Origin: Diadophis punctatus similis
Taxonomy: Eukaryota > Chordata > Lepidosauria > Squamata > Dipsadidae
Direction of reading: 5' to 3'
NCBI GenBank assembly: GCA_023053685.1
Contig: JALIGW010000001.1
Location: forward strand, 74,502,240-74,566,239
DNA: 64,000 nucleotides
Shown: positions 6,038-59,793 of the stretch, one piece after another
Layout: every line of letters begins with the position of its first letter
Position numbering within the stretch: position 1 is the first letter of the stretch
The notes under the pieces: generated by a model
Database searches by the model: none
What the model was told of the DNA's origin: nothing
The model's input: the letters and a program-made list of their open reading frames with translations, nothing else
Made by a program: the position numbers and the translations under genes

Positions 6038-6347
6038 CAGGGGTGAAATCCTCCCGGCTCGCTCTTACCTGTTGGTCGCCGCACAGCCGAACAACCTGGT
6101 GGCATTTGTGGCGCGGGGCTTCCCCCACCCGCTTCCCTCGCCCACCTGGACACCGGCATTTGCGTTCTTTTGCCCTCTGTGCATGCGCAAAGCGTTCTGC
6201 TTGCGCAGAGGGCAAAAGAACGCAAATGCCGGCGTCCAGGCGGGCGGGGGAAATGGGCGGGGGAAGCCCCGCGCCGCGAACACCACCAGGTTGTTTGGCT
6301 GTGCGGCGACCAACAGGTAAGAGCGAACCGGGAGGATTTCACCCCTG
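6038..6347. mobile_element. fold-back hAT-type MITE with long hairpin
   Basis: The ends are inverted (CAGGGGTGAAATCCTCCCGG left, complementary right end closing ATTTCACCCCTG) and sit between runs of C that could hide an 8-bp duplication. Almost the whole element is a palindrome. The core at 6145..6240 pairs CCTGGAC...GGCATTTGCGTTC with its inverse. The same core is found inside the MGAT2-carrying element at 31123..31199. Confidence 0.85.
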
Positions 6348-22955: not shown

Positions 22956-24227
22956 TCACCCCATCTGCCGGAAGAGCCATGTTTTTAAGGCTTTACGGAA
23001 GGCCAGTAGGGTGGGGATGGTCCGGATCTCTGGTGGCAGTTGGTTCCAGAGGGACGGGGCTCCCACAGAGAAGGCCCTCCCCCGCGGTCCCGCCAACCGA
23101 CATTGTTTGGCCGACGGGACCCGGAGGAGGCCCTCTCTGTGGGACCTAACCGGTCTTAGGGAGGTATGTGGTAGGATGCGGTCCCGCAGGTAGCCTGGCC
23201 CTGAGCCATGTAGGGCTTTAAAGGTAGCGACCAACACCTTAAATTGCACCCGGAGGCTGACTGGTAGCCAATGCAGCTGGCGAAGGATAGGTGTTACGTG
23301 GGTGTATCTCGGTACACCCACTACTGCACGCGCAGCTGCATTCTGTACCAGCTGGAGTCTCCGGATGCTCTTTGAGGGTAGCCCCATGTAGAGCGCGTTA
23401 CAGTAGTCTAGCCGTGAGGTGACAAGGGCATGAGTGACTGTGAGCAAGGCCTCCCTCTCCAAGTAAGGTCGCAATTGGTGCACAAGACGGATTTGTGCAA
23501 AGGTCCCCCTAGCCACAGCTGAAAGATGTTGCTCCAATTTTAGCTGTGGATCTAGGAGGACACCCAAATTGCGAACCTGTTCTGAGGGAGTCAATTTTTC
23601 TCCCCCGAGAACCAAGGAGGGACAGTCGACATAGTCCTTGGGAGGCAATATCCAGAGCCACTCAGTCTTGTCTGGGTTGAGCCTGAGTCTGTTCACTCCC
23701 ATCCAGACCCTCACATCGTCCAGGCAGCGGCACATCACATCAACTGCTTCACTGAACTGACACGGGGTGGAGATGTATAACTGGGTATCGTCAGCATACT
23801 GTTGATACCTCACCCCATGTCGTTGGATGATCTCACCCAGCGGTTTCATGTAAATGTTAAACAGGATGGGCGAGAGGACCGAGCCCTGTGGCACCCCGCA
23901 AACCAGGAGCCTAGGGGCCGACCTCTGTCCTCCTGTCAACACCGACTGCGTCCTGTCAGAGAGATAGGAGGAGAACCACTGTAAAACAGTGCCTCCCACT
24001 CCCATCTCCCCAAGACGACGCAGAAGGATACCATGGTCAATGGTATCGAAAGCCGCTGAGAGGTCAAGTAGCACCAGGATGGAGGAATGACCCCCATCCC
24101 GGGCTCGCCAGAGATCATCCATCAGCGCGACCAAAGCAGTCTCCGTACTGTAGCCGCGCCTGAAACCCGATTGAAAGGGATCCAGATAATCAGTATCCTC
24201 CAATAGCCGCAGGAGTTGGAGCGACAC
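22956..24227 (-). pseudogene. LINE ORF part 3: reverse transcriptase core and C-terminus
   Basis: 423 codons without interruption. RT motifs are in order: QSGFRRGYSTETAL (19-32), LDLSAAFDTIDH (54-65, first catalytic Asp), GVPQGSVLSP (111-120), and YADDTQLY (144-151, the catalytic YADD). These are followed by the thumb/C-terminal words NLGVLLDPQL, RLDYCNALY and LWNQLPPEIR. The catalytic residues are intact, so the copy is damaged only by the upstream frameshift and stop and is probably young. L2 versus CR1 placement is from memory. Confidence 0.9.
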
Positions 24228-25387
24228 TTCTCAACAACCTTACCCAAGAAGGGTAAGTTGGAGACTGGACGGAAGTTCTTTAAATCCGCTGGGTCCAGGG
24301 AAGGCTTCTTGAGGAGGGGCCTCACCACCGCAGCTTTTAAAGGCTGTGGGATGGATCCCTCTCTCAAAGAAGCGATCACAACCGCCTGGAGCCAGCCGCG
24401 TGTCACCTCCCTGCTGGCAGAAACCAGCCAGGAGGGGCACGGGTCCAATAAACAGGTGGAGGCGCTCATCGCTCCTATGGCCTTGTCCACATCCTCAGGA
24501 GTGACAGGTTCAAACTCGTCCCATATAACAGGACTAAGACTCACCCCTGTCATCTCGGCTTGCCCTGTCCAAATGGAGTCCAGGTCTGTCCGAATCTGAA
24601 CGACTTTATCCGCCAGAAACTGGGAAAATTCCTCAGCTCTGCCCTGCAAGGGATCTTCAGCCCCCTCCTTGGCTAGGAGGGAGCGAGTCACCCTAAACAG
24701 AGCGGCTGGGCGGGAGTCGGCGGACGCAATAAGAGCGGAAAAATACGCGCATTTTGCCGCCCTTATCGCCACTAAGTAAGACTTAATGTAAGTTCTTAAA
24801 AGTGTCCGGTCAGACTCAGCTTTACTGGCTCTCCATCGTCGCTCTAGGCGTCTCTTTAGGCTCTTCATCTCCCGGAGCTCCTCAGTAAACCAAGGGGCCC
24901 TCCGGGATCCGCTGCCACGGAGAGGCCGCAAAGGCGCAATCCGGTCTAAGGCCCCCATTGCCGCCTGGTTCCAAGCAGCAACTAGAGCCTCAGATGAATC
25001 GTGTACCAGGGAGTCAGGTATTTCCCCAAGTTCCCTCTGAAATCCTTCAGATTCCATTAGGCGCCTGGGGCGGAACCACTTAGTCGGTCCCGCCTCCTTG
25101 CGGTGGAGGAGTGGTGCCATGAAATCCAACCTCAGAAGGAAATGATCTGACCACGACAAGGGTGTTGTGACTAAACCCCTCAGCCTCAGATCATCTCTCC
25201 ACTGCCCCGAGAGAAACACAAGGTCAAGCGTGTGACCTCCCTCATGAGTCGGACCCTGAACTACTTGGGTCAGGTTCATGGTTGTCATGGAAGCCATGAA
25301 CTCCTGGACTGCCTCCTGGACTGCCTCCTGGATTTGCCATCGCCTTTCACCGGGCGATGGCAAATTAAAGTCCCCCAGCACCATCAA
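24122..25387 (-). pseudogene. LINE ORF part 2: end of endonuclease, linker, start of reverse transcriptase
   Basis: In the same frame as part 1. It shows the endonuclease motifs GDFN (residues 5-8) and SDH (80-82), then a charged linker with a WFTEELREMK helix typical of this LINE clade, then the first RT block (LKNFRPVSNLPFLGKVVEK, about residues 370-390). After that lysine the frame becomes nonsense relative to the family and stops at 24122. The correct continuation is in another frame from 24227, consistent with loss of one base near 24224..24230. Confidence 0.85.
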
Positions 25388-25450
25388 CCTGGGGAACTCA
25401 ATCGCCAGCCCTGCTACCGCCTCGAGCAGAACAGGCAGGGCCTTTGTAAC

Positions 25451-26140
25451 TTAGCTAGGAGGCAGGTACGCTAACAAAAGGCCCACCTGGACCCCTAAGT
25501 CCAACTTCAGAAGGAGCGTCTCATACCCAACAATCTCCGGGGCAGGGCTCCTTCGAGGATTAAGGTTCTGGCGAGCTATAATCGCCACTCCTCCACCCCT
25601 TCCCTGGGGTCGCGGCTGATGCTGTACTAAGAACCCGTCCGGGCACATCTCGGAGAGGGGAACCCCCCCCTCCTGGCCTAGCCAGGTCTCAGTGATACAT
25701 GCCAGGTCCGCCCCCTCTTCCAGGATTAAATCCCGTACAAGGGGGGCCTTGTTGGTAATTGATCTGGCATTCAACAGTAGCAGCTTGAGCCCAGGGCCCT
25801 GACATCCCTGGTTACCAGGACCTCGGGTTGAGCAAGATGGAACCAAACCTGAGGGGCCAGAACAAGGAATCGCTTGGAGACAGCGAGTTCTCGTTCCCCG
25901 AGAGCGGCCTACCCCTCTGCTCCCGCCATACCTACCTCTCCCTGTTATGACCATAATACTCCCGCTCCCCCTTGTACCAGAGATCCCCTCCCCGCCCCCA
26001 CTGGTCTCCCTCTCTTCCGGCAAACCATCCATACCACTCACTCTAAAACGGGGATCAGGCTCCAGAACCCCTCCACTTCTGTTTTCACACTCAGTAAAGG
26101 GGGCCGGGGCCCAAGCACCCGCATTCCTCATTCCTACCAA
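25451..26140 (-). pseudogene. LINE ORF part 1: N-terminal region and start of endonuclease
   Basis: 229 codons. Residues 1-110 are Gly/Arg/Ser-rich without a recognised domain. Residues 118-229 are the first half of an apurinic-type endonuclease, with NARS (124-127), ITETWL (149-154, the catalytic Glu) and GGGVAIIARQN. The frame ends in TAA at 25451..25453 directly after the LLAYLPPS strand. The next block (24122..25387) continues in the same frame, so this is a nonsense mutation and not a natural end. The true initiation codon is uncertain. In an active element the product would nick target DNA for reverse transcription. Confidence 0.85.
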
Positions 26141-29719: not shown

Positions 29720-30445
29720 CAGTGGTGAAATCCAATTTTTTTACTACCGGTTCTGTGAGCATGGCTTGGTGGGCATGGTGTGGCTTGGTGGGCGTAGCTT
29801 GGTGGGTGTGGCAGAGGAAGGATACTGCAAAATCTCCATTCCCACCTAACTCTGGGGCCAGCCAGAGGTGGTATTTGCTGGTTCTCTGAACTACTCAAAA
29901 TTTCCGCTACCGGTTCTCCAGAACCTGTCAGAACCTGCTAGATTTCACCCAGGGGTGAGTTCTAACTTACCTCACTTCTCACTTCCACCCGCGCCGCGTG
30001 GCTGTGCCTCGTGGGTGCACATGCGCATGCGCAGTGGCAAAAAATCCAATCCCCCCCAAAGCCGAAAACAAGATGGCGACCGCATGCAGAGTGCCTGAAA
30101 CTCGGCTTCTGTGCATGTGCAGAAGAAAAAAATCCCGGGGAAAAATTTGGGGAAAAAAATCGACCCCCCCCCTCCAAAAGCTGTAAACAAGATGGCAACC
30201 TCATGCACAGTGCCGGAAACTCGGCTTCTGCGCATGCACAGAAGAAAAAAATCCCGGGGGGGAAATCCCCCCACAAAAAAATATTTTAAAAAAATTCAAA
30301 AAATTTCAAAAAAAAATGGCGGCGCCCACGGACTAGCACCGACCAAACCGGTTCCGTGACATCATTGTGACATCACCAGCAGGTCGCTACCAGTTCGGCC
30401 GAACAGGTTCGAACTGGGAGGAACCCACCTTTGATTTCACCCCTG
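29720..30445. mobile_element. hAT-type MITE (CAGTGGTGAAATCC family) interrupted by another hAT MITE
   Basis: The outer ends are CAGTGGTGAAATCC and ATTTCACCCCTG. The 8-bp TSD TTATAAAG is perfect (29712..29719 and 30446..30453). The inner element at 29950..30433 was inserted 12 bases from its right end. Confidence 0.92.
29950..30433. mobile_element. hAT-type MITE (CAGGGGTGAGTTC) nested in the preceding MITE
   Basis: The ends are CAGGGGTGAGTTCTAACTTA and GGGAGGAACCCACCTTTG. The 8-bp TSD ATTTCACC is perfect (29942..29949 and 30434..30441) and is formed from the host MITE's own terminus. It carries an internal tandem repeat of about 113 bp (AAACAAGATGGC units near 30068 and 30185) and GCGCATGCGC cores near 30022 and 30230. 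Confidence 0.92.
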
Positions 30446-31048
30446 TTATAAAGATACTATAATAGAATCTTGAATGTGTTTCCCCTTCCCTTCCTCTCTT
30501 TATATCTGTGAGAACTAGGGAGATCTTGTCTTAAGATGCTTACTTGGGTTACACTTCTGCCCTAGACAGAACTAAATAAATTTCTATTATCTGACTTTTG
30601 TCTTGGTTTTGGCTCTTCCTCTTGTTCCTCAAGGTTATTCCTTCTCCCTTTATAGTTTCTGACAGGGCAGCCATTGACCCAGGAATGGATGGTAGTGACT
30701 TTCCGCCACTTCCTATTTTGGCAAAAAGAAAAAGATATTAGATGAAGTAGTGAAGGATTCCCTCAATAGATGGCATATTTGAGGGATCTGCACAGGGGAT
30801 GGAGATGGAACAGCAGTTTTACTATTACATTCATTTGTTCACCATTATCTTTACCTGAAATGCAGTCTTTATTCCCCACTTGCCTCCGTTTGCTGTCATC
30901 ATTGGAACTAATCCTTCCCCTAGCTCTTCTCTGCCTACTACCTGGGCCTCACTCAGTGGCTTGAACCACCATATAGCACATGACAAGTGGCAATTGCTAA
31001 ATAGGTGGCAGTGCGGCTCCCTTGTGGATTCCTGAGTTTGCCCTATTG
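30446..31048. other. intergenic, nothing recognised
   Basis: Unique-looking DNA. The chimeric reading frame described at 30831..31796 runs into it from the right. Confidence 0.4.
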
Positions 31049-31796
31049 CAAGGTGACCAGATTTTTTTTTTAAGCGGGACACCATTGACGGGGGGTGGGT
31101 TTCTAGGGGAGCCGCCATTTGAGTTTTGCCCTCTGCGCATGCGCAGAACGCTGTGCGCATGCGCAGAGGGCAAAAGAACGCAAATGTCGCCGTCCAGGTG
31201 GGTGGGGGGGAGGCGGGAGGCCTTTCCTCGCCTCCCGCCTCCCCTTCAGGAGCCGGCAGTGCCTTGGGCTGGCTGGCTGGCAAGCGAGCGACCGGGCTGG
31301 CGTCTCTGTCTTGCCTCTCCTGCTCCCCCTCCGCCAGAGCGCGTCGCAGCAAGTCCAACAGGATCCGGAGGTGCTCGGCGCGCTCATGCACCTGCACCAC
31401 CAGCGCCACCGCCACCTCTCCGGGGCCGGGGCCGCCCCCGCCGGGCCGCCAGCGCGCCTCGTTGGGAACCGGCTGGTCGAAGTTGAGTCGGTAGACCAGA
31501 GACCGGTAATGCAGGGTGCGATTCAGTCCCGGCGCCGCCTCTTCCCTCGATATCGAAGAAGAATTGGAGTGCCGCCCATTATTAACTGGAAGGCTGCTGC
31601 TGGTAACAGCCGGTGGCAACAGTCGATCTCCCGGGAGCAGCGGCGGAGACGCGGCTTCTTCCCATTTGCTGCTGCTGCTGCTGCTGACGGCGCCGCCGCC
31701 CTCGCTTGTGCCTCCCCAAAGCACTAAGGCACAGGCGGCGGCGGCCAAGACCAGCAGCAGCGCCACCACTTTGCGCTTGTAGATGCGGAGTCTCAT
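30831..31796 (-). other. chimeric open reading frame starting in the captured MGAT2 segment
   Basis: From the MGAT2 start codon the frame stays open for 321 codons. About 153 are MGAT2-like. The next ~95 are encoded by the element's own left arm (including the hairpin, read as CPLRMRTAFCACAEG), and the rest come from flanking unique DNA beyond the terminal repeat. If transcribed it would give a Golgi-type signal anchor joined to unrelated sequence. There is no evidence of expression. The openness could be chance plus high GC content. Confidence 0.3.
31337..31796 (-). pseudogene. MGAT2: truncated MGAT2 copy (N-terminal ~153 codons)
   Basis: MGAT2 is alpha-1,6-mannosyl-glycoprotein 2-beta-N-acetylglucosaminyltransferase, a Golgi type II membrane enzyme that starts the second antenna of complex N-glycans. 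This segment begins MRLRIYKRKV, followed by a hydrophobic anchor (about residues 11-28). Next comes a Ser-rich stem with an N-R-T glycosylation site (92-94), then the conserved blocks HYRSLVYRLNFDQ (96-108) and VVQVHERAEHLRILLD (133-148). Similarity stops near residue 153 of about 447, so the catalytic domain is absent. No stop or frameshift interrupts the 153 codons. The vertebrate gene is essentially intronless, so exon structure cannot say whether capture was from DNA or RNA. The presence of GC-rich upstream DNA argues for DNA capture. The start at 31796 was chosen by the family N-terminus; an in-frame ATG at 31841 adds 15 unconserved residues. Confidence 0.82.
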
Positions 31797-32257
31797 GGTC
31801 CGGGAGGTTTCCGGTTCTCCTGTGCCTTCCTCGTTCCTCACTTGCGGTGGTTTCGAGCCGGGCTTGGCGCGGCCCCCTGGCCCTTGGAGCGCATCAGCGG
31901 AACAACCGAGTGCTCCAGGGTTCTAGGATGCCCGATTGCTGGGGCCGCCGCCACCGCGCCCGCATCCTCTCCCTCATTTTCTTGGCCGGAGATGAAAGAG
32001 GCAGTGCGGCCGAATGAGCGAGCGAGGGAAGGAAGGAGGGAATCGTACGGCTCCGCCCCGGATGCACCAGCCGGCCACGCTACCTCCGTTGGGGCTGCAG
32101 CAACCCCAGGACCTCCCTCTCCAGGCGGCTTCCGGATCCGGACTACTCGCTTCGTTCTCTGGAGAGGCTGCATGCGCGCTTGTGTGTGTGTGTGTGTGTT
32201 CGTGAGCGCTCCAGCAGCCCAGCGCTGACGGAGGGGGAGCAGGAGAGCCAAGACTCA
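31797..32257 (-). promoter_or_regulatory. captured GC-rich 5' flank of MGAT2, possible transplanted promoter
   Basis: This stretch lies directly upstream of the MGAT2-like start codon on the minus strand and is CpG-dense, as housekeeping promoters are. It includes a short (TG)n at about 32180..32198. I infer that it is the 5' UTR/promoter of the source gene because it is continuous with the coding segment and bounded on the far side by the MITE at 32258. No core promoter element was identified with certainty. Confidence 0.4.
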
Positions 32258-32391
32258 TAAGGTGACCAGACGTCCCGCTGTTTCGGCATTCTTTCCAAAA
32301 AAGCGTGACTTTTTGGAAACAATGCGGGACGCGGAACACATGCGTGAAAAGCGTGTCTGTCCCGCCAAAAGCGGGACGTCTGGTCACCTTA
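32258..32391. mobile_element. hairpin MITE forming the right end of the Pack element
   Basis: 134 bp with a perfect 21-bp inverted repeat starting TAAGGTGACCAGACG at 32258 and closing at 32391. The 8-mer on its inner side is AAGACTCA, and the one on its outer side is CCCTATTG. So it lacks its own TSD pair, and its outer end is the outer end of the larger element. Confidence 0.85.
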
Positions 32392-32399
32392 CCCTATTG

Positions 32400-33159
32400 G
32401 CAAGAAGCTTACCAAAGGGAATACTGATCTTGTGGAAGGTTTTCCATGTGATCACGATTTTCTTGATTCCCCAAACCACAAAGCGTAAGGCGAATAGTTA
32501 ATATTTGCTCTTTCCCGCAACCAAAGCAGACATGGTCTTGGAAACATGGAGTCCTGCAGTTGAAGCCTGCAAGTATCGATTCTCTGGCGGATCCTCCTCC
32601 ATACCACATAGAATGGGAATGGCAGTTTTATTTCCTGCTGGATACTTTTGATCCATTTTCAGCCTGCCTCAGCAGCAGGCTGGCCTTGAAATGGAGGCTT
32701 TGTTCAGAGGGCATGTCTTGAGCAAATGGTAAGTGAGCCATCTCACAGTCAAAGCAGTAGGTTGTATGGATAAGCTCTAAGCCCAAGGGAAGCACTGGAA
32801 GGAGTTCAGTTATAAGAAAATTTGCCTTGTCACAGATATTTATTACCCATCTCTAGAAGTAAAACAAGATTTATAATTATAACTTGCTCTTTAATTTAGC
32901 TGACAAAATATAGAGAGCAGATTAGTTGAAAGCCAGTTTCCTTGCTGAGATTTATCTACACAGAGGTTCCATGTGGGAGGCACTGTGGAGATGGTATTTC
33001 TTCTAAATGCAATTACTGCTCAGTAATAGCATTTCTTCAGATTCAAAACCAAGAAAATGCTTAGGAGCATACTGGGGTGCAAATGTAGCACTTTCCTGCA
33101 GCTCTTTAAGCCAGACACGCATTTTCCTGGAATTGCATAGTAATCAGGTTAAACATCTA
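32400..33159. other. intergenic, nothing recognised
   Basis: No supported gene or repeat. Confidence 0.4.
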
Positions 33160-33224
33160 TATCTATATCTATCATCTCTATCTCTATCTCTATCTCTATC
33201 TCTATCTCTATCTCTATCTCTATC

Positions 33225-33306
<82 letters not shown>
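33160..33306. repeat. (CTAT)/(CTCTAT) compound microsatellite
   Basis: CTATAT, then CTCTAT hexanucleotides, then pure CTAT tetranucleotides up to 33306. Confidence 0.98.
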
Positions 33307-56749: not shown

Positions 56750-58480
56750 AGGCACCCCAGTCCTTCTATTTGCATCCATTCACACACGAAAGAGCTGCCG
56801 TTCCCTCCCTCGCTCACTCCCTCCCGCTCTCCGCGTGCTGACTACAGAGAGCTGGTTATTCTTGCAGCTCTTGTTGTCTTGGCAGGAGTTCAATGAGCAG
56901 CAGGCGGAGGAAGGGGAGAGCCTAACACGCAGGCGCTCCTGGGCACTGTCGAAGAATCGAGTCACTGGAGCAGAGCGCCCAAGCGGCGGCGACTGCTTCT
57001 GGAGTCCCCGCCCAGTGTGAGTGTCTGGGCGGCCGGCAGCCGGCGGGCAGTGCTGGAGTAGCAAGAGCGCGGTGCGGGCAGAGCGAGCGGCGTGTCGTAC
57101 TGGGGGGTCGGAGGGAGCTGCGCTCGGGCGATGCATATCGCCACGTCCCCGGAGTCCCGGAAATAGGAGAGCCTGGCAGAAAGCAGAGGCGCTTCCTTCG
57201 CCTCGGAGCCGCGCTCGTTCGCCCAAGGAGCTGGCATTCAGGGCAAAAGGCTGCAGCGGTTGCAACACGCCGAGCCTCCCCGGTGGCAAGCCGACCAGCG
57301 GTGGGGAAGAGGAGGTAGGGGACGAGGCGCGGGGCGCTCGCTGCCCCTGGACTCGGCCATGTCGTCCGCGGCGGTGGCGGTGGCCGCTGCCTCCCGCAGG
57401 CAGTCCTGTTACTTGTGCGATCTACCTCGCATGCCCTGGGCCATGATCTGGGATTTCACCGAGCCCGTCTGCAGGGGCTGCGTCAACTACGAAGGGGCCG
57501 ACCGTGTGGAGTTCGTCATCGACACGGCTCGGCAGCTCAAGCGGGCGCACAGTTTCCAGGAAGGCCGGGCTCCGCCACCTCCGCACGCCAAGCAACAGCC
57601 TCCGCCGCTCAGCGCCAAAGACCTGCACTCGGCGGCTGTGGCCACGGCCGAGGCGGCATCTCGCGCCCCGCAGCCCCACGAGCGCTACTCTCTGGCTGCG
57701 GCGCTGGCGTCTTCTGAGCGGCCGCCTCCCCGCCTGGGACCCGAGTACGGCGGGAGCAGGCAAGTCAATGGCATCCTCGTTCCCAACGGTTTCTCCAAGC
57801 CCGAGGAGCCGCCCGAACTGAACCGTCAGAGTCCTAACCCGCGCCGGACGCACGCCGTGGCCCCCACTTTGGTACCGCTCATGAACGGAGCCTCCCTGCC
57901 CGCCTCCATCAGCATCAGCAGCCGGGCGGCGGCGGCTGCAGCAGCCTCCTTGGCGGCTATCTCCGGAGCGCCGCCAACCCCGCTGCAGGTCTCGGTCTCC
58001 CAAGCTCAGCAGAGCCAGCAGCAGCCCGGGGAAGGGGGCGGGCACAAGCGGCCCGGCTCGGTGTCTTCCTCTTCGTCTGGGGGCGGCGGTGGCGGCGGCG
58101 GTGCCAGCGACCAGGAGGGCAAGGAAAAGGGGCAGCCACAAGCGGCGCGGGGTTCGGCGGACCCTCTGGACCCACTCGGCGTGGAGAGCAAAAACCGGGG
58201 GGCAGCGGCGGGCTCGGAGCAAGAGTGGCTGGGCAAGCCCAAGACCGTGCGTGACACCCTGCTGGCCTTGCAGCACAGCGGCCACGCGGCGCCCTTCGAA
58301 AGCAAGTTCAAGAAAGAGCCCGGAATGGCGGGAGGGAGACTCTTGGGCTACGACAACAACGGGGCCGCGGCCAAATCAGGTGAGAAAGGCGGGCGTTTGG
58401 CGCGGGCAGTTGGGGTTCTTGTGGAGGGAGAACCGCTTCGCCCTTCCTCCCTGAAAAACCGGGTCAGGGGAGCATTTTCA
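56750..58480 (+). promoter_or_regulatory. IRF2BP2: CpG-dense promoter and first-exon region of IRF2BP2
   Basis: CpG frequency is high from about 56750 through the first exon into the intron, unlike the rest of the window. The 5' UTR must end at 57358. There is no TATA box near the start codon, in keeping with a CpG-island promoter. The transcription start cannot be placed from sequence alone. Confidence 0.75.
57359..58379 (+). CDS. IRF2BP2: IRF2BP2 coding exon 1 (residues 1-340 plus one base)
   Basis: IRF2BP2 is a nuclear transcriptional corepressor that binds IRF2 and also NFAT1 and TEAD/VGLL4 complexes. This exon starts [15 protein letters not shown]. It contains the family-defining N-terminal zinc finger, with C17-x2-C20 and C38-x2-C41 in [18 protein letters not shown] and [16 protein letters not shown] low-complexity middle follows: Pro-rich (71-83), the conserved block [20 protein letters not shown] (137-156), poly-Ala (190-200), Gln-rich (216-222), and Ser5-Gly8 (236-248). 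It ends with the conserved [15 protein letters not shown] (295-309) and SKFKKEP (315-321). The ATG has a favourable GCC context. The in-frame ATG at 57260 would add 33 unconserved residues. The donor is CAG|GTGAGA at 58379/58380, in phase 1. IRF2BPL is excluded by the TEPVC finger and the [11 protein letters not shown] start. Confidence 0.95.
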
Positions 58481-59086
58481 GCCTCCTGCCCGGTGCCTGG
58501 CTGTGGCAGCGTGCTCCGGGCGCGGAAGCAACATCTGGCGGGGAGGTTTCCCCTCCCTACCCCTGGCCACTTTCTCTTGCGAGGGGAGCATTGGGCAGGC
58601 GGGGCTGGGAAACATTTTGCCTTCCTCCTCCTGCACCAGGCTAGAAGTCAGAGCGTGCAAATTAGCAAACATGCGGAAGTTAGCCAGAGACTTGATGTGT
58701 ATGGATAAATGTAGGGCTCTGCTCTGTGTGAGTGGATTATGACGCATTGGGTGCACAATGACTGAATGTGTTTCCAGCCAGTGGAAAATTACAAGCATGC
58801 ACTTGTTTCTTTGGCTCATGGCCACTAATGTGGGAGGAGGGAGGCACAATGTAGTTGCATTTGACTGCAGTGTGTACCATAATAGTATGAGTGGTGGCCC
58901 AGCACGTTGGTCTACCTTGCAGAAGCTGATTCACAAACCCAGATAAGGTGAACTCCTGTTGGTTTTGATATCATTTGTATCTAGTGAGTAATTTGGCTGA
59001 GGTCCAGCTGCTTCCACTGACTAGACCGTGATATAGGACACACCACTCTCTGCAACATGATCTCATCTCCCAATGCTTCTTTCTAG
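58380..59086 (+). other. IRF2BP2: IRF2BP2 intron, 707 bp
   Basis: It starts GTGAGAAAGG and ends CTTCTTTCTAG, both consensus. It joins a phase-1 codon (G|GG). The reading frame of exon 1 happens to stay open into the intron to a stop at 58706..58708, so intron retention would give a 449-residue protein without the C-terminal RING-type domain. Confidence 0.93.
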
Positions 59087-59793
59087 GGGCTCGGGCTGCG
59101 AGGAAGAGAAAGGCTTCTCCAGAGCCCGAAGGTGAAGCTGGACCTCCAAAAATCAATGGCGAGGCACAGTCATGGTTACCCACCTCATCAGAAGGGATGA
59201 AAATGCCAATGGCAGCTGCATCTTTCATGTCCCCACCGCCACCAACTGCTTCGCCTCATTCAAATCGGACCACACCACCAGAGGCAGTTCAGAATGGTCA
59301 GTCCCCTATGGCTGCACTCATTTTGGTTGCAGACAACGCCGGGGGCAACCATGCTTCCAAAGATGCCAACCAGGTTCACTCCACCACCAGGAGGAATAGC
59401 AGTAGCCCCCCTTCTCCATCCCCTATGAACCAAAGAAGGCTGGCCAGGGAAGTGCCGAGCCAAGGGGCAAATCCTGGAGGGATGGAACCAGTGCACCCTG
59501 TCAGCCTCCCAGACTCTTCTCTGGCAGCGAGTGTCCCCCTCTGCTGCACCCTGTGTCACGAGCGATTGGAAGACACCCACTTTGTGCAGTGTCCCTCCGT
59601 TCCGTCTCATAAGTTTTGCTTCCCTTGCTCTAGACAGAGCATCAAACAGCAAGGAGCTAATGGCGAAGTATATTGTCCCAGTGGGGAGAAGTGCCCCCTA
59701 GTGGGATCCAATGTCCCTTGGGCCTTCATGCAAGGGGAGATTGCAACCATTCTTGCAGGAGATGTCAAAGTGAAAAAAGAGAGAGACTCATGA
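59087..59793 (+). CDS. IRF2BP2: IRF2BP2 coding exon 2 (residues 341-575, stop)
   Basis: Continues from exon 1 as [20 protein letters not shown], which includes the basic nuclear-localisation cluster ARKRK. The mid-section [19 protein letters not shown] and [13 protein letters not shown] is highly conserved in the family. The C-terminal C3HC4-like RING-type domain spans about residues 493-543, with [29 protein letters not shown] and [12 protein letters not shown]. It ends [12 protein letters not shown]. Combined length is 575 residues against about 587 in human. No frameshift or missing metal ligand is seen, so the gene should be functional. The RING-type region is the part that contacts IRF2 and other partners in mammals. 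Confidence 0.95.

Follow-up and report, generated by a model that had tools for sequence, protein, structure and literature searches.

A candidate hAT-like Pack-TIR with three termini and the 5' end of MGAT2

The 64-kb window, by which we mean the whole stretch of DNA that was analysed, contains a transposon of 1343 bp (31049-32391) with the 5' end of the glycosylation gene MGAT2 inside it. Its target-site duplication (TSD), its inverted ends (TIRs) and protein homology together support its classification as a non-autonomous hAT-like Pack-TIR. There are three termini in this transposon, and the duplication is common to the outermost pair only. A complete MITE at the right end, a 33-nt inverted repeat and hairpins in the left arm come in addition to the features listed in the first-pass annotation. 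With a probability of roughly 55%, we think that the MGAT2 piece moved here as one unit, in a transposition in which the transposase paired the outermost ends and bypassed the inner end of a MITE that forms the right end of the element.

Termini of the element and the right-hand MITE

The transposon is flanked on both sides by a perfect 8-bp duplication, CCCTATTG, identical at 8/8 positions when the left (31041-31048) and right (32392-32399) flanks were compared; for one predefined pair of flanks, the chance of such a match is 4^-8 by simple arithmetic. The outermost ends, CAAGGTGACCAGA on the left and, read on the other strand, TAAGGTGACCAGA on the right, differ in their first base and are then identical at 12/12 positions. 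This 12-nt terminus, AAGGTGACCAGA, has three exact copies: two on the plus strand, at 31050 and 32259, and one in reverse complement at 32379-32390. No further exact copy was present in the window, where allowing up to two mismatches gave eight matches, compared to 6.24 expected. On the left, the terminus is accompanied by a T-run and a subterminal GCGGGAC motif (31049-31110, plus strand). The outline from 31049 to 32391, the matching termini and the perfect 8-bp duplication, all of which the first-pass annotation had proposed, were confirmed by this comparison.

TIRs of the hAT superfamily are 5 to 27 bp long, and the target-site consensus given for Buster-type members is nnnTAnnn (PMC3517528). 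The hAT features present here are the 8-bp TSD and short TIRs, which measure 12 nt at the outer ends and 25 nt (at 96%) in the right-hand MITE. Judged by the form of its TSD and TIRs, the element is hAT-like, and the earlier proposal of a non-autonomous hAT element carrying the start of MGAT2 is backed by these two features and by protein homology. The TSD can be read as CCC-TA-TTG, its TA falling in the middle as in the Buster-type consensus (nnnTAnnn), an agreement at a single site that has a 1 in 16 probability of arising by chance and that hints weakly at a Buster-type placement.

Repeat and fold analysis revealed that the right end of the element is also the right end of a complete hAT-like MITE of 134 nt (32258-32391), bounded by the 25-nt inverted ends. 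These 134 nt fold at z -9.1, and none of 200 shuffles folded equally well. The inner flank of the MITE, AAGACTCA (32250-32257), agrees with the outer flank CCCTATTG at only one of eight positions. Hence this is not an independent MITE insertion: the MITE closes, on the right, a longer unit that starts at 31049. The same disagreement between its two 8-bp flanks (1/8) led us to reject a later nesting of the MITE into the right end of the element. As the mark of end bypass we took, on our own reading, an intact terminus that is skipped within the unit combined with a TSD at the outermost ends only, and we found an exact inner terminus at 32258, agreement of the inner flank at 1/8 and agreement of the outer flanks at 8/8. 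The element is thus not the plain two-ended one of the first-pass annotation: its outer ends match at 12/12, and on the right, the end is a complete MITE with an inner terminus of its own. To the right of the transposon lies a long CTAT/CTATCT microsatellite (33158-33306).

The MGAT2 piece and its upstream DNA

Translation from an ATG at 31796 on the minus strand yields MGAT2 residues 1-153 without a stop or frameshift, and by translation and protein homology the captured coding start, that is, the ATG and 153 homologous codons, occupies 31338-31796. The earlier count of about 153 MGAT2 codons inside the element was thus correct. The best protein relative, P0002 (a Pseudonaja textilis cluster of 25 sequences), matched at 84% over 93% of the 165-residue query (E 1.5e-69), Candoia MGAT2 matched at 79% over 93% of the query, and six other squamate proteins (P0004-P0009) matched at 47-65% over 86-93%. 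The parental gene can therefore be identified at the protein level as MGAT2, as is asked of a Pack-TIR. The solved enzyme 5VCM, which we take to be human MGAT2, aligned with residues 46-153 (E 1e-10). The Pfam MGAT2 model stayed below its cut-off (16 vs 27 bits), and only the first 50 of its 349 positions were matched; with most of the enzyme absent, the copy is presumably not a working MGAT2.

The end of the coding piece can be placed exactly. Where the alignment of seven native squamate proteins has LRRA-PG(V/A)E(K/R)V, the captured copy has LRRA-LAEGE, and this replacement of the native LRRA-PG puts the coding breakpoint at 31337/31338. In a tree of eight proteins, the captured copy grouped with two snakes (support 99/98; the order inside the trio is not settled), indicating that the host is likely a snake. 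Among the 64 columns that are invariant in the seven native squamate proteins, the captured copy changes two (R111P and S149L), and leaving out each native protein in turn gave one to seven changes over 65-71 invariant columns. By this measure, the captured codons are indistinguishable from a recent neutral copy.

Upstream of the ATG, the element holds 425 nt of GC-rich DNA (31797-32221, minus strand), in agreement with the first-pass annotation, with 65% GC and a CpG observed/expected ratio of 0.84, compared to 39-45% GC and ratios of 0.18-0.46 in the two flanks of about 1 kb. Its position and contiguity with the coding piece would make it the 5' UTR and promoter of MGAT2, and the CpG content that it has kept suggests a young or unmethylated copy.

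An intact frame of 153 codons and a high CpG content are also what the start of a functional gene would have, as expected if the transposon ends were coincidental and the sequence represented a processed copy, a segmental duplication or the native MGAT2 locus after a deletion. We consider such an origin highly improbable. The TSD and TIRs are perfect, and with 425 nt ahead of its start codon, the piece includes more upstream DNA than a processed copy usually brings. When the window was searched by tblastn with two snake MGAT2 proteins, only the captured piece was recovered and the rest of MGAT2 was absent from the 64 kb (next match E 0.24); since no other MGAT2 is present and the one recognised host gene is IRF2BP2-like, this is not the native MGAT2 locus, and a native locus with a deletion was rejected within the window.

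The Pfam scan of the window comprised 16 stretches, namely the MGAT2 frame and 15 others from the list of 67 open frames, and ten of the scanned open frames matched no family. The IRF2BP-family gene (57356-59793, plus strand) was matched in two parts, a zinc finger N-terminus and a C3HC4 C-terminus, and we take this gene at about 57.4-59.8 kb to be an IRF2BP2-like paralogue. A LINE on the minus strand (22956-26140) has long open frames, in which RVT_1 recognised a reverse transcriptase (E 1.4e-31) and an endonuclease scored weakly, short of the cut-off; its frame appears to be broken near 24.1-24.2 kb.

Junctions of the captured piece and the route of capture

The captured piece is bracketed by a 33-nt inverted repeat that begins where homology to MGAT2 ends, at codon 153. 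The left arm of the repeat (31308-31340, minus strand) is MGAT2-like at this codon (31338-31340) only, and its right arm (32222-32254, plus strand) is complementary to the left one at 30 of 33 positions (91%); when the two adjacent stretches of 120 nt underwent 100 dinucleotide shuffles, the best result was 21/33. The 881 nt between the arms lie within the 100-5000 bp of host DNA expected of a Pack-TIR. The left arm of the element itself contains a double hairpin (31111-31250) with perfect stems of 22 bp (31124-31175) and 15 bp (31207-31244), and the DNA fold of 31105-31250 reaches -59.4 kcal/mol (z -9.5; 0/200 shuffles equally good). The animal Pack-TIR survey asks that the two flanks come from one and the same element (PMC8277862). 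Here, the two arms that flank the captured DNA are identical at 12/12 positions at their termini and differ further in, the right arm being the complete MITE. The left arm lacks a recognisable inner terminus: among the sites starting in 31062-32249, none comes closer to the 12-nt terminus than four mismatches. Four sites reach this level, and one of them, at 31319 in the left arm of the 33-nt repeat, is in right-end orientation. For this reason, a simple composite of two complete elements around the gene piece is not supported.

Elsewhere in the window, a 310-bp near-palindromic foldback element (6038-6347; 89% self-complementary, ends CAGGGGTGAAATCC) is embedded in a run of C. The core of the first left-arm hairpin recurs in this element, whose ends differ, and the common core suggests that different foldback families exchange cores. 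An end at 30434, ATTTCACCCCTG, adjoined by GCGCATGCGCAG-type repeats at 30000-30250, resembles that of the 6038-6347 element, and the region around it (30300-30450) is possibly another MITE of this group.

Tan et al. distinguish three routes of gene capture (PMC8277862). One is end bypass, another is gap filling, which may or may not involve transposition, and in the third, fork stalling with template switching precedes transposition. As a small complete transposon forms its right end, our element likely arose when the transposase skipped a normal end and took neighbouring DNA with it, and as the left end is an arm that lacks a recognisable inner terminus and is joined inside the MGAT2 coding sequence, template switching probably came first. 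We propose that the MITE sat upstream of the MGAT2 copy that was captured, that MGAT2 DNA would have been joined to the left arm via template switching at this hairpin-rich arm, and that a hAT transposase from elsewhere would have excised the whole unit between its outermost ends and reinserted it. The 33-nt inverted repeat may be the scar of the template switch or else a remnant of foldback arms. An intact inner terminus that was skipped, together with a duplication at the outermost ends only, fits the trace expected of end bypass, and the left-arm hairpins fit the fork-stalling and template-switching step as outlined by Tan et al. (PMC8277862).

Gap filling in place, in which a composite element consisting of the left arm and the MITE, already flanked by the CCCTATTG duplication, broke in the middle of its hairpins and was repaired with MGAT2 filler DNA without transposition, is a serious rival, because the animal survey favours this route for single-copy cases and because the same outer duplication is expected from it. 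Gap filling without transposition is the route given by Tan et al. for most single-copy animal Pack-TIRs (PMC8277862), the inverted repeat here brackets the would-be filler, and the left arm is able to form strong hairpins. Such a history needs a pre-existing composite element, however, and MGAT2 itself is missing from the 64-kb window. In the survey, the distance to the parent was less than 15 kb for 160 of 281 unique Pack-TIRs (PMC8277862), although the route also allows a distant filler. The survey pipeline may, in addition, miss end-bypass cases, since their parental copies are linked to transposable elements (PMC8277862). We regard gap filling as the less likely course of events, at well below even odds. 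Insertion as one unit, as proposed in the first-pass annotation, remains the likeliest reading, with the qualification that gap filling in a resident element would leave the same outer duplication.

It is also conceivable, but rather improbable, that a chimera was made elsewhere by fork stalling and template switching and was at once transposed here (FoSTeST), in which case the MITE would be an earlier nested or fused element. FoSTeST has been proposed for multicopy cases in frog, alligator and fly, and multicopy cases are described as lying far from the parent and tending to take GC-rich DNA (PMC8277862); the DNA captured here has 65-66% GC, and MGAT2 is not nearby. A nested MITE should nevertheless have matching 8-bp flanks, which this one does not, and two protein-level searches disclosed no truncated or chimeric MGAT2 of the same build. 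With a 248-aa query, four matches were obtained among the best-sharing 7996 candidates, and all four continue into the native catalytic part; with a 162-aa query, 0 of 1667 candidates matched. Among 29 related proteins, the native motif DDYNWDW was present in all 29, and the left-arm frame was matched at best at E 4.2. The database consists solely of predicted proteins clustered at 90%, so that it could conceal close copies as well as unannotated ones. Searches of viral contigs returned no match to the 20-nt MITE end and no MGAT2 relative, apart from one pattern match that was not confirmed.

Significance and comparison with known Pack elements

It is not settled how cut-and-paste transposons capture host genes; the animal survey favours gap filling and may miss captures by end bypass (PMC8277862). 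In the element described here, a skipped inner end, an exact coding breakpoint and a junction at a repeat render the capture route testable at the native MGAT2 gene and at the empty target site. The element is hAT-like, has a likely snake host and bears the start codon of a gene along with CpG-rich upstream DNA, and such carried upstream DNA might offer a route for moving promoters. The MGAT2 frame stays open for 321 codons in all, via the left arm into the flank, but the GC-rich element is also crossed by seven further frames, each 123-206 codons from stop to stop, and we discount the 321-codon frame because long open frames are common in this DNA. A bolder version of end bypass in a vertebrate, in which the transposase took a live CpG-island promoter, a start codon and a Golgi-targeting N-terminus from an MGAT2 adjoining the MITE and so gave rise to a mobile promoter unit whose 321-codon frame could make a chimeric membrane protein, strikes us as a long shot.

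In the literature searched, which consisted mostly of non-subscription papers and was not queried for MGAT2 by name, we found no snake case and no capture of MGAT2. The statement in the first-pass annotation that few clear cases of Pack-type elements exist in vertebrates is out of date, as 370 animal Pack-TIRs, 208 of them hAT, have been reported from 55 of 100 species, with cases in frog, alligator, zebrafish and primates (Tan et al. 2021, PMC8277862). Animal Pack-TIRs are thus an established kind of element, and what is unusual about the MGAT2 element is its three-ended build.

As described in the survey, animal hAT Pack-TIRs such as Pack-hAT-N8_XT from frog, which contains 291 bp of the CAPSL 5' UTR, are alike in having non-autonomous ends and a TSD around a 5' host gene fragment (PMC8277862). 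Compared to Pack-hAT-N8_XT, the MGAT2 element additionally has a complete second MITE as a flank, a 33-nt inverted repeat, and a start codon with coding sequence. Ssk-FB4 from Drosophila likewise holds upstream and coding DNA together between inverted transposon ends, but is reported to be multicopy, to contain nearly the whole gene between TIRs of about 700 bp and to have protein evidence, whereas the MGAT2 element has 153 codons and 12-nt outer ends (PMC8277862). Plant Pack-TYPE elements are also non-autonomous DNA transposons with captured coding DNA, their hosts being plants (PMC8903248). In its proposed mechanism, the MGAT2 element resembles the P element undergoing end bypass (transduction), which also carries DNA beyond its own end by using another terminus; in the P element, bypass accompanied artificial activation of the transposase (PMC8277862), whereas here it is inferred from an inner terminus skipped in a genome sequence.
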